Shown piece by piece: positions 1,988 to 63,143 of a DNA stretch of 64,000 nucleotides (its first letter is position 1; each line of letters opens with the position of its first letter). Made by a program: the position numbers and the translations under genes. The DNA lies in NCBI GenBank assembly GCA_017590115.1, contig JAGGNK010007460.1, forward strand, positions 84,508-148,507. The letters run 5' to 3'. The DNA comes from Montifringilla adamsi. Lineage: Eukaryota; Chordata; Aves; Passeriformes; Passeridae. Below the pieces are notes generated by a model. The model was not told where the DNA came from, did not search any database, and saw only the letters and a program-made list of their open reading frames with translations.

Positions 1988-4900
1988 CTATCCCATCTCC
2001 AGGTGTTTCCATCTCACTCCAGGTGTTCCCAGCCCATCTCCAAATGTTCCCCTCACCTGCCCAGCTGTCTCTAACCCACGTCCAGGTGTTCCCCTCACCT
2101 GCCCAGGTGTCCCCACCTCGCTGCTGGGGGATCGGGAGTCACCTGCGGGGCTCACCTGGCCGCTCTCACCTGAGAGAGCCACGTGGCCACTCCCACTCTC
2201 ACCTGCGGGGCTCACCTGTCCCCCCTCACCTGTGAGGCTCACCTGACTGCTCCTGCCGTCCCCAGCAGGGCTCACCTGGCCACTCCCACCTTCAGCCGTG
2301 GGACTCACCTGGCTGCTGTCACCTGTGGGGCTCACCTGGCCGCTCCCACCTGCAGAGCTCACCTGTCCCCCCTCCCCCGCAGAGCTCACCTGGCCGCTCT
2401 CACCTGCAGAGCTCACCTGGCTCCCCTCACCTGCAGAGCTCACCTGTCCCCCCTCCCCCGCAGAGCTCACCTGGCTGCTCCCGCTCTCACCTGCAGAGCT
2501 CACCTGTCCCCCCTCCCCCGCAGAGCTCACCTGTCCCCCCTCCCCAACAGAGCTCACCTGTCCCCCCTCCCCAACAGAGCTCACCTGTCCCCCCTCCCCA
2601 ACAGAGCTCACCTGTCCCCCCTCCCCAACAGAGCTCACCTGTCCCCCCTCCCCCGCAGAGCTCACCTGTCCCCGCTGCCCCGCCCAGGCCCCGCCCAGGT
2701 ACCTGAGCACCTCTCCAGGTGGGCAGCGCCGCGCGGGCTGGGGGTGGAGCAGCCCCCGCAGCAGCGCCAGCCCCGCCCCCCCCAGCCCCCGCCAGGTGCG
2801 CGGCGGCCGCGGCAGCGCCTCACCTGCGCAGGTGCGGCCGTGCCACGCCCGGAAGCGGCGGAAGGCGGGGTCGGAGCGCGCAGGTGAGGCCCAGGGGAAG
2901 GTGCCGGTGAGCAGCGCGAAAAGCAGCACGCCGAACGCCCAGGTGTCCGCCGCGGGCTCCAGCCGCCGCCGCCGCGCCTCACCTGCCCGCAGGTGCAGCA
3001 GCTCAGGTGCGGCGTAAGGGGCGGGGCCGGGGGCGGGGCGCACCTGCCAGCCCTGCACGCGCGTCAGGCCGAAGTCGCCGAGCTTGACCAGGTGACACTC
3101 GCGGTCGAAGGCCAGCACGTTGTCCAGCTTCAGGTCGCGGTGCACCAGGGCGTGGCCGTGCAGGTAAGACAGGGCCGAGCACACCTGGGCGGCGCAGCGC
3201 TTCACCTGCGGCTCCGGGAGACCCACCTGGGGACGGGGGACACACCTGGGGTCACACCTGGGAGGGGCAGTGATTCACCTGCATCTCTGGGAGACCCACC
3301 TGGGGACGGGGGACACACCTGGGGTCACACCTGGGGACAGGTAACACACCTGGGGTCACACCTGGGGGCACCTGGTTCACACTTGGGAAGGACAGTGATT
3401 CACCTGGGGCTCTGGGAGACTCACCTGGGGACAGGTAACATACCAGAGGACAGGTAAAACACCTGGGGACAGGTAAAACGCCTGTGGGCAGCTGGGGGCA
3501 CACCTGGGCGGGTTCACCTGTGGCTCAAGGAGACCCACCTGGGCATGGGGGGGCACCTGGGGGCACTTGGGACACACCTATGGGGTCACTCAGTGTCACC
3601 TGGGGGTACCTGGGGAGCACCTGGGGACACACCTGGGGGCACCCAGCACTGTCACCCAGCCAGTGCTGTGTCACCTGAGAGGTCACCTGAGCACACCTCT
3701 CCTCCCACCAGGTGCAAAACTGTCCCCTCTTCCCACTCACCTGTCCCACCTGTCCCTCACCTGTGACTCACCCCAGGTGTGAGCAGCCCGCACAGGTCCC
3801 CGGCAGGTGTGAGCTCCATCCCTTACCTGTCACACCTGTCCCATCTGTCCCACCTGTCCCTCACCTGTCCCTCACCTCACACCTGTCCCACTCACCTGTC
3901 CCTCACGTCCTACCTTCACCTGTCCCACTCACCTGACCCTCACCTCACACCTGTCCCTCACCTGTCCCTCACCTGTCCTACCTGTCCCTCACCTGTAACT
4001 CAGCTGTCCCTCACCTGTCCTACCTGTCCCTCACCTGTGACTCACCCCAGGTGTGAGCAGCCCGCACAGGTCCCCGGCAGGTGCGAGCTCCTGGGCGAAG
4101 CCGAACTCCGTGGGGGTCTCGAAGGCGAGCGGCAGCACCTGCACGCAGGTGAGCGCCCCCCGCAGGCACAGGTGAGTGCAGAACTCCCGCAGGAAGCCCC
4201 ACCTGGGCGTGCGCTCCTTGGAGAGCAGCTTCAGCGCCACCTGCGCACCTGCACAGGTAACAGCTGGGTCAGGGAACACACCTGCACAGGGAACACACCT
4301 GCACAGGTAACAGGTGGGTCAGGGAACACACCTGCACAGGGAACACACCTGCACAGGTAACAGCTGGGTCAGGGAACACACCTGGACAGGGACAAACACA
4401 CCTGGGACAGGGAACACACCTGGAGAGGGACAGACACACTTGGGCAGGTAACACAGCTGGGACAGGGACAGACACACCTGGGACAGGGAACACACCTGGA
4501 GAGGGACAGACACACTTGGGCAGGTAACACAGCTGGGACAGGTAACACACCTGGGTCAGGGAACACACCTGGACAGGGAACACAGCTGGGACAGGGAACA
4601 CAACTGGGACAGGGAACACACCTGGACAGGGACAGACACACCTGGGACAGGGAACACACCTGGAGAGGGACAGACACACTTGGGTAGGTAACACAGCTGG
4701 GACAGGTAACACACCTGGGTCAGGGAACACACCTGGACAGGGAACACAGCTGGGACAGGGAACACACCTGGACAGGGACAGACACACTTGGGTAGGTAAC
4801 ACAGCTGGGACAGGTAACACACCTGGGTCAGGGAACACACCTGACAGGGAACACAGCTGGGACAGGTAACACAGCTGGGTCAGGGAACACACCTGCACAG

Positions 4901-62500: not shown

Positions 62501-63143
62501 CCAGCGGCGAGCCCAGACAAAGGCGAGGGACAGACCGAGAGACGGACCGAGGGACAGCAGCTGCGACACCAGGAACTGCCCTGGGGACATTGGGGACAGC
62601 CCTGTGACACAGGGACAGACCGAGGGACGGACCGAGGGACAGCAGCTGCGACACCAGGAACTGCCCTGGGGACATTGGGGACAGCCCTGTGACACAGGGA
62701 CAGACCGAGGGACGGACCGAGGGACAGCAGCTGCGACACCAGGAACTGCCCTGGGGACATTGGGGACAGCCCTGTCNNNGTGAGCATTTTTGGGCTGAAT
62801 TCGGGCCATTTTGGGCTGACTTCGGCCCATTTTTGGGCTGAATCCGGGCCATTTTGGGTCATTTTTGGGCTGAATTCGGGCCTTTTTGTGCCATTTGGGG
62901 CTGAATCCGGGCTTTTTTGGCCATTTTTTGGGCTGAACGTGGGACATTTTGGGACATTTTGGGCCATTTTGGGCCATTTCGGGCCGTTCGGGGTCGCTCA
63001 CGTGCTCGGCAGCTCGCGCAGGTCGCGCAGGCGCAGATGGGGCGGCAGCGCCTCCAGCGCCTCCCAGCGGCGAGCCCAGACAAAGGCGAGGGACAGACCG
63101 AGGGACGGACCGAGGGACAGCAGCTGCGACACCAGGAACTGCC
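56549..63143 (-). CDS. ASPDH: Putative L-aspartate dehydrogenase (ASPDH), 5' end missing
   Basis: Family reaction: NAD(P)-dependent conversion of aspartate to oxaloacetate. Exons found: 62439-62580 (second copy 63002-63143), 60935-61019, 58876-59025, 57974-58206, 56697-56848, 56549-56586; phases join correctly and give 266 residues against about 283 in human. Landmarks: [97 protein letters not shown]; ends GHGGCVKLC. The first exon with the nucleotide-binding GxGxxG motif was not found up to 64000; it may lie in the assembly gap, beyond the window, or in the repeat at the right edge. Confidence 0.88.
56826..56975 (-). repeat. Triplicated acceptor of ASPDH penultimate exon
   Basis: Three consecutive copies of about 50 bases, each containing the exon start (plus strand CAATGTGACAGTCGGGGACA) and the following acceptor. 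Only the leftmost is joined to the coding exon. Confidence 0.8.
56976..57973 (-). repeat. GGTGACACAGAGGTGACAC array in ASPDH intron
   Basis: First a GGGGACACTGAGGGGACATT block, then about 650 bases of AGGTGACACAGAGGTGACACC and CAGGTGACACATGAGGTGAC units, mostly spaced ten to twenty bases. No coding content. Confidence 0.85.
58207..58540 (-). repeat. ASPDH intron with a copy of the upstream part of exon 57974-58206
   Basis: Positions 58281-58352 duplicate the first ~55 bases of the neighbouring exon and its acceptor (GGGGGCCTTGGTCATTGTCA on the plus strand). The rest is GGGGACAGCCAGGGGACA repeat. Confidence 0.75.
58541..58875 (-). repeat. Four extra copies of an ASPDH exon 3' end with donor
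   Basis: The exon end encoding [10 protein letters not shown] plus its GTGACA donor (plus strand GTCACCTGCAGTGTCCCCGC) occurs near 58543, 58637, 58715 and 58796, and finally in the functional exon at 58870. Spacing is 74-94 bases. Confidence 0.85.
59026..60934 (-). repeat. GGGGACATTGGGG array with decayed ASPDH exon starts
   Basis: About 1.9 kb of GGGGACAC/GGGGACATTGG units. Decayed copies of the acceptor plus first codons of exon 58876-59025 (plus strand GCGCCGTGGGGGACCCCAGC and variants) occur near 59424, 59790, 60045, 60718 and 60785. Confidence 0.8.
61020..62438 (-). repeat. TTTTTGGGGTGAATTTGGG and TTTTTGGGCTGAATTC arrays
   Basis: Up to 61240, GGGGACATTGAGG units. Then about 1.2 kb of units of GCCATTTTTGGGCTGAATTC type with nested duplications (for example 61730-61990 against 61330-61600 and 62030-62230). 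No coding content is recognised. Confidence 0.85.
62520..62776 (-). repeat. Three copies of an ASPDH exon 5' end before the gap
   Basis: A unit of about 90 bases, including the exon start and acceptor (plus strand GACACCAGGAACTGCCCTGG), is present three times; only the leftmost belongs to a whole exon. Confidence 0.85.
62777..62779. other. Assembly gap (NNN)
   Basis: Three N bases. Sequence to the right (62780 onward) repeats sequence found at about 62227 onward on the left, including a complete second copy of the ASPDH exon, so the gap may separate two versions of one locus or sit in a real tandem duplication. Confidence 0.95.

Follow-up and report, generated by a model that had tools for sequence, protein, structure and literature searches.

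Genes on the dot chromosomes of chicken show a pattern of repetition termed "sequence stuttering" or "exon stuttering" (Hron et al. 2026, PMC12954441). In the parts of that report considered here, stuttering is described for 236 introns (190 of them on dot chromosomes) in 115 genes; its source lies ≤1 base from the exon border in >90% of cases, it shows strong length polymorphism, and the mechanism is left open, with no seeding process proposed. Here, we analyze a 64,000-nucleotide stretch of the genome of Montifringilla adamsi (GenBank assembly GCA_017590115.1, contig JAGGNK010007460.1, positions 84,508 to 148,507; hereafter, the window), which includes genes for SBK, an SRCR protein, JOSD2, and ASPDH. 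The window resembles what is described for chicken in two respects: introns are filled by local imperfect tandem repeats, such that 85% of non-exon positions of the gene spans are repeated ≤2.5 kb away, and exon edges are copied together with their splice sites into the adjacent intron, from one to dozens of times, with the real exon retained.

A first-pass annotation of this DNA had claimed that tandem arrays in at least four unrelated genes consist of exon ends plus their own splice sites, and that splice junctions are used as seeds for tandem duplication. We located every array on that list, and the pattern is beyond chance and recurs in unrelated genes; the seeding claim is not supported. 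We assign a probability of about 0.72 to a different reading, namely local tandem-duplication instability in which junctions are tolerated edges, together with one core motif per neighborhood that is favored in both exons and introns.

Local repetition and splice junctions

Across the window, 72% of 24-mers (each fourth start tested) have a copy ≤2.5 kb away. The corresponding values in controls, based on a one-in-eight sample of 24-mers, were 1.3% for Markov-shuffled flanks and 4.2% for a distal 5 kb of the same window, which indicates that the repeats are local and far above chance. Tandem Repeats Finder (TRF) coverage amounts to 70% of the window, and repeat units are mostly ~10–130 bp long. 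The hexamer CAGGTG occurs 1,365 times on both strands of the whole window, versus 96 expected, most commonly in the context CAGGTG[AT]G; there are 91 occurrences in 48–64 kb. There was no signal of inverted pairing among motifs (292 orientation switches between adjacent motifs, versus 637 at random).

We placed exons using Pfam, PDB, and tblastn, and we set their borders by splice consensus and reading frame; the ASPDH exon 6 donor and the SBK exon borders are predicted from consensus and frame. SBK (minus strand) was identified by its Pkinase domain and the SRCR gene (plus strand) by its SRCR domains, whereas JOSD2 and ASPDH are both on the minus strand, with JOSD2 matching PDB 6pgv. These four genes provided 39 curated splice junctions, with the exon 2 duplicates (e2dup exons) excluded. 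An ungapped junction copy was defined as a 24-mer with ≤5 mismatches, located ≤2.5 kb away and outside annotated exons. Intronic copies of the junction's own 24-mer within 2.5 kb were found at 17 of 39 junctions by edit-tolerant matching and at 16 of 39 by ungapped matching; no edit-tolerant copy was found at the other 22. Among 59 ungapped copies, 53 are on the intron side. Donor copies kept GT in 26 of 29 cases and acceptor copies kept AG in 29 of 30, in agreement with the earlier claim that the arrays generate decoy splice sites. Taken together (55/59), these dinucleotides are retained no less often than neighboring positions (~0.90), so there is no visible sign that the decoys are purged.

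With exons masked as targets and the exon interior defined as ≥36 bp from an edge, the repeated fraction was 6% in exon interiors (mean copies, 0.16), 44% at junctions (mean copies, 1.7), and 85% at non-exon positions of gene spans (mean copies, 8.5). The rise begins ~50 bp inside the exon, ends ~25 bp into the intron, and is followed by a plateau, with no peak at the junction. The observed junction value was reached in 0 of 5,000 resamples on either side (exon interior or intron). The first-pass annotation had proposed to compare the overlap of repeats and exon ends with that for shuffled boundaries; in our resampling, the overlap is higher than expected from the exon interior and lower than expected from the intron. 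Because the copy-number ramp lacks a junction peak, and junctions are intermediate between exon and intron, we reject seeding. A simple neutral simulation, with uniform duplications of which none alters an exon, also produced junction copies without seeding and without a peak.

Array motifs within coding exons

Our analysis of exon motifs covered six gene regions: SBK, SRCR, JOSD2, ASPDH, and two zinc-finger genes, ZNF1 and ZNF2. The null for exon hexamers preserved the amino acid sequence, codon usage, and dinucleotides at codon boundaries (150 samples). Under this null, CAGGTG[AT]G (1–40 kb) and GGGACA (48–63 kb) show a statistical excess at synonymous sites of exons, in either orientation. 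CAGGTG/CACCTG had the top-ranked excess in the exons of SBK (19 vs 10.6 expected), ZNF1 (26 vs 17.5), ZNF2 (13 vs 9.1), and SRCR (85 vs 52.9; 42 vs 27.0 for four diverged domains alone). In JOSD2 and ASPDH exons combined, CACCTG was found 0 times (1.1 expected), whereas GGGGAC (13 vs 4.6) and GGGACA (12 vs 4.1) ranked first and second. A simpler permutation null agrees with these excesses.

The over-used motifs correspond to the local arrays, though not completely. A stretch rich in CAGGTG/CACCTG (1526–40000, no strand assigned) combines dense arrays with over-use in the exons of SBK, ZNF1, SRCR, and ZNF2, with other motifs, including GGGACA, also present; a stretch rich in GGGACA/TGTCCC (48500–63300, no strand assigned) combines dense arrays with over-use in JOSD2/ASPDH exons, with CAGGTG still present. 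In non-coding DNA, CACCTG is the most frequent hexamer around SBK, ZNF1, and SRCR, and GGGACA leads around ASPDH and JOSD2, followed by GGGGAC; around ZNF2, CACCTG is just third. The array signature is thus not strictly confined to introns, given that array motifs lead the ranking of synonymous excess in exons.

Matches to CAGGTG/CACCTG are scattered along the SBK, SRCR, and ZNF1 coding sequences, in all codon phases. The ratio of CAGGTG to CACCTG in exons is 44:41 in SRCR, 8:11 in SBK, and 7:6 in ZNF2, and the equal orientations in SRCR favor a DNA-level cause over splicing. Arginine before TG is encoded by AGG in 21 of 33 cases, versus 12 of 142 elsewhere (7/15 vs 9/80 in a less redundant subset, P = 0.003), and Ser-Gly appears as TCA-GGT, as judged by eye. 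The perfect donor consensus CAGGTGAG occurs 13 times in exons of the CAGGTG genes versus 1.6 expected, a count that includes paralogous SRCR domains; SBK alone has 2 versus 0.1, and the four diverged SRCR domains have 3 versus 1.2 (P = 0.06). In the SRCR domain 2 exon (24110–24180, plus strand), an in-frame 12-bp tandem repeat encodes PGGA/PGDA and differs in copy number in the Chamaea record P0243, which shows that coding exons stutter too.

We also considered long-tract conversion of exons from their own introns, which is not supported: trimmed SBK fits non-coding DNA of the ZNF1 region (z ~6) better than its own (z ~2.5). In this long-word analysis, trimming reduced JOSD2 and ASPDH to 51 codons.

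Protein-level traces in passerines

Read in frame, CAGGTG encodes Gln-Val and CACCTG encodes His-Leu. The motif coincides statistically with amino acid replacements in passerine SBK and SRCR proteins. We assigned taxon groups from truncated names and general taxonomy, and for SBK we picked 58 entries by eye among 120 listed (18 passerine, 18 non-passerine bird, 9 turtle/crocodilian, 6 squamate, and 7 mammal/amphibian); about 10 passerine entries (species duplicates, partials, and others) and many more non-passerine entries were omitted. Based on 18 passerine versus 18 other bird proteins, with four turtle/crocodilian entries, Gln-Val and His-Leu rank first and second among 400 dipeptide gains in passerine SBK (per 290 residues, 5.87 vs 0.28 for Gln-Val and 3.26 vs 0.06 for His-Leu). 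At SBK positions 121–122, all 18 passerines used have Gln-Val, whereas Gln-Leu is found in 9/9 turtle/crocodilian, 6/6 squamate, 7/7 mammal/amphibian, and 15/18 non-passerine bird proteins. We then compared 18 passerines plus the window with 18 other birds and 9 turtle/crocodilians. The motif overlaps 10 of 30 residues derived in passerines, versus 14 of 128 conserved residues (P = 0.004; 1 of 287 circular shifts was as extreme); a looser definition gave 15/69 versus 15/133 (P = 0.04).

Passerine SBK has diverged far faster than SBK of other birds. Against four turtle/crocodilian records, passerines average an identity of 0.54 and other birds 0.69, and among the matches listed, the SBK of the window has 78–95% identity to oscines, 59–75% to suboscines and Acanthisitta, and 43–59% to other birds.

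For the SRCR gene, we used all 120 listed entries except P0319 (Pseudopodoces, 48% identity, Gln-Val at 0.72 per 100 aa), which was dropped from the counts; the comparison is between 4 passerine entries and 26 putative orthologs from non-passerine birds, with some species present more than once among the 26. Gln-Val again ranks first of 400 gains (2.23 vs 0.18 per 100 residues), with His-Leu fourth and Thr-Cys fifth. The ratio of CRQVxC to CRQLGC is 9:8 in the 4 passerine proteins and 0:135 in the 26 non-passerine bird entries. ASPDH, which has the other array motif, shows no leading gain of Gln-Val or His-Leu (ranks 40 and 37; 6 oscines plus the window vs 14 non-passerine birds, from 41 entries used of 120 listed).

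Junction copies in individual genes

Copy numbers at the arrays are close to those claimed by the first-pass annotation. In SBK, the acceptor of exon C (exon start 3226) has three extra copies in an array at 3180–3541 (minus strand), where TRF and ungapped matching identified 73-bp and shorter units that contain the exon start and AG. The donor of SBK exon B (4248–4046) has one copy, ~274 bp into the intron (3770–4248, minus strand). Farther along, at 1988–2684 (minus strand), the SBK reading frame continues into a 27-bp tandem array that would, if translated, give many copies of a 9-residue repeat resembling GQVSSVGEG.

The acceptor of SRCR domain 6 (exon start 29597) has one extra copy, as a 59-bp unit occurs twice at 29490–29612 (plus strand). 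We also found copies at SRCR domains 5 and 7 and at the ASPDH exon 5 acceptor, all absent from the earlier list. Within SRCR domain 6, an intron of 226 bp (29725–29950, plus strand) has CAG/GT at both borders. The other eight of the nine SRCR domains in the window are uninterrupted at this position; the intron with its borders contains 13 CAGGT, and the peptide reads on from one side to the other without a break. The comparison with paralogous domains suggests that the motif may have created this intron through AG/GT repeats. An additional SRCR domain (16673–16987, minus strand) is near-alike to domain 8 (31980–32300) and lies on the opposite strand.

In JOSD2, the last-exon acceptor has 12 extra copies (about a dozen were claimed) within ~865 bp of contiguous repeat (49796–50660, minus strand). 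Downstream of JOSD2 exon 3 (52523–52329), its 3′ part recurs three times together with the donor, in units of ~490 and ~820 bp (50820–52523, minus strand), so that the four copies claimed are three plus the original. JOSD2 exon 2 (55434–55309) has eight extra donor copies (about eight claimed) in an array at 53000–55434 (minus strand) that also includes a whole-exon copy at 54170–54045. This exon belongs to a 525-bp block, in that 54001–54525 is 100% identical to 55265–55789; the identity reflects either a very recent duplication or an artifact.

In ASPDH, the exon at 58876–59025 (exon 4) has arrays at both ends: six extra copies of the donor (five claimed; 58530–58909, minus strand, exon end 58876) and four of the acceptor (about five claimed; 58996–59460, minus strand, exon start 59025), with the nearest ungapped acceptor copy 418 bp away. 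The acceptor of the exon at 56697–56848 (exon 6) is present as two copies plus the original (three claimed) in an array at 56848–57160 (minus strand), and the exon 5 acceptor has an upstream copy of the first ~60 exonic bases (58206–58370, minus strand). The start of ASPDH exon 2 has three extra copies, where three or more were claimed. This exon occurs twice as a whole (63143–63002 and 62580–62439, within 62227–63171, minus strand), on either side of an NNN gap at 62777–62779, and the duplicate block begins at the next base after the gap; an assembly join is the probable source of the duplicate. Between SRCR domains 3 and 4, 25128–26031 and 26441–27344 form a 906-bp alignment with 98.6% identity, 1,313 bp apart, representing a recent tandem duplication or an assembly duplicate.

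Explanations for the repeats and the exon motifs

In the explanation that we propose, tandem duplication of short units can arise at any non-coding position. When a duplication spans a junction, one intact exon and a working splice site would be kept while the spare copy falls in the intron, such that selection would tolerate it; duplications internal to an exon would mostly be purged, although at least one in-frame case persists (SRCR domain 2). Selection would thus act as a filter on duplications, and seeding gives way to a simple rule, that junction-straddling duplications escape selection. For the exon motifs, we infer a DNA-level process that favors the same motif in exon and intron alike. 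The likeliest route would be repair or recombination that copies very short tracts between near-identical repeats, across ~40 kb. GC-biased conversion alone does not fit the pattern because AGG has a lower GC content than its alternatives.

A more specific version, to which we give slightly less than even odds, is that CAGGTG[AT]G is favored in transmission or repair when it lies on the dot chromosomes of passerines. Under such motif drive, CAGGTG[AT]G would build arrays in introns, enter exons as short tracts on either strand, override codon choice, and create decoy donors and occasional new introns; from the passerine stem onward, it would have replaced conserved residues (for example, QL by QV), and GGGACA would behave likewise in the neighboring 15 kb. 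If true, motif drive would account for part of the fast protein evolution on dot chromosomes, in place of adaptation or GC-biased conversion by itself.

Several observations weigh against local instability with a favored motif. G4-like motifs number 100 and 109 on the two strands (209), versus ~54 in total in ten shuffles. The neutral simulation predicts more junction and exon-side copying than observed and over-predicts its depth on the exon side, so junction-spanning units are, if anything, under-represented. Read in the sense direction, the array motif is similar to a splice signal, and a sense bias is present around three gene groups: CAGGTG in SBK (30.2:10.8 per kb, sense:antisense), CAGGTGAG versus CTCACCTG in SRCR (18.7:6.4), and TGTCCC versus GGGACA in JOSD2/ASPDH (22.9:9.0). 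Longer words in exons are not shared preferentially with introns of the same gene. In JOSD2 exons alone, the excess of GGGACA under the simpler permutation null is weak (6 vs 3.1, P = 0.01), and SBK introns are GGGACA-rich (rank 3), yet SBK exons have 0 versus 0.2 expected. ZNF1 exons are skewed in orientation (6 CAGGTG:20 CACCTG). At the protein level, other-frame readings of CAGGTG were gained less in SBK (TW rank 12, TC 21, RC 44, RW 53), and in ASPDH, gains match the readings of the local motif only in part (LS rank 4, VP 14, GT 25, GD 362, CP 365). There are also few independent events, as SRCR domains are paralogous and most SBK changes occurred on the passerine stem.

The sense bias is also an argument for splice junctions as seeds, whereby a feature of the border (an R-loop, a splicing-coupled break, or donor-like sequence) triggers tandem duplication; four unrelated genes show the pattern, their copies keep GT/AG, and around SBK, SRCR, and JOSD2/ASPDH the sense strand of the arrays is like donor or acceptor signals. 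We nevertheless regard seeding as very unlikely, given that there is no junction peak, introns are richer in copies than junctions, and 22 of 39 junctions are copy-free. Orientation is equal in SRCR exons, and the sense bias is not seen around ZNF2 (CAGGTG 8.5:9.1) and is reversed for the 8-mer around ZNF1 (CAGGTGAG vs CTCACCTG 1.4:6.2). Less improbable, but still unlikely, is an origin in the exons, in which proteins and codon preference made CAGGTG-rich exons, pieces of which founded the arrays, with no invasion of exons. Exon edges are indeed present in arrays, and amino acids and codon use already predict many motifs (52.9 in SRCR); however, the synonymous excess survives when amino acids, codon usage, and boundary dinucleotides are fixed, residues common outside passerines were replaced toward those encoded by the motif, and the motif of JOSD2/ASPDH exons is another one, in line with the arrays of those genes. 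Least credible of all is that units were collapsed or falsely duplicated from noisy long reads. The duplicate that starts right after the NNN gap and the 525-bp identical block at JOSD2 exon 2 are what such errors would look like, but many copies differ from one another, arrays make up 70% of the window, and the protein-level gains are present in records of independent species. In addition, the general repeat structure of chicken PHF8 introns was confirmed in raw nanopore reads, according to the portion of the report considered (PMC12954441).

If the exon motif excess holds genome-wide, then repeat sequence would steer protein evolution in passerines, which make up more than half of bird species, whichever way the motif is oriented and in opposition to splicing fidelity. 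The rapid evolution of dot chromosomes and their loss of genes would also gain a concrete cause other than GC-biased conversion, because AGG (arginine before TG) and TCA-GGT (Ser-Gly, by eye) have a lower GC content than their alternatives.

Other features of the window

At gathering scores, Rfam identified only four tRNA genes (47186–47259, plus strand; 44880–44961, minus; 46197–46268, plus; 47469–47540, minus). They sit in a 40–48 kb stretch that has lower GC and zero CAGGTG on both strands. Further unit families occur at 5871–10100 and 15001–15757, namely, ACCAGTACAA/TACTGG decamers and ATTAATCAT units; these are dense in certain stretches only and have no evident likeness to splice signals.

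Comparison with known systems

Within the literature that we searched, the term "exon stuttering" was met in one paper only. For CAGGTG in avian microchromosomes, we found no publication joining all three among the topics searched, and among the papers listed on repeat motifs or synonymous effects in passerines and on songbird minisatellite cores, we found no exon invasion.

The sequence AGGTGGGCAGGTGG, taken here as the core of Jeffreys 33.15-type GC-rich minisatellites, which are hypervariable, has 23 matches in the window with ≤2 mismatches, versus 3.6 expected, although this core overlaps CAGGTG. The window differs from Jeffreys-type minisatellites in that the commonest context is CAGGTG[AT]G and unrelated unit families are also present.

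In the model of intron gain by Rogers, as given in the part of the source considered, a segment containing AGGT is duplicated in tandem (PMC4974935). The SRCR domain 6 intron is similar in its CAG/GT borders, CAGGT repeats, and continuous peptide, but its similarity to the exon is seen at the CAGGT level only.

With respect to chicken stuttering, the intron and junction phenomenon is already published, and it is here extended to a passerine. Whereas the chicken report, in the text considered, calls coding regions intact, the array motif is over-used in exons of the window; "codon," "synonymous," and CAGGTG do not appear in the main text of that report (PMC12954441). What is new in the window is the match between exon motifs and local arrays, along with its trace in proteins.

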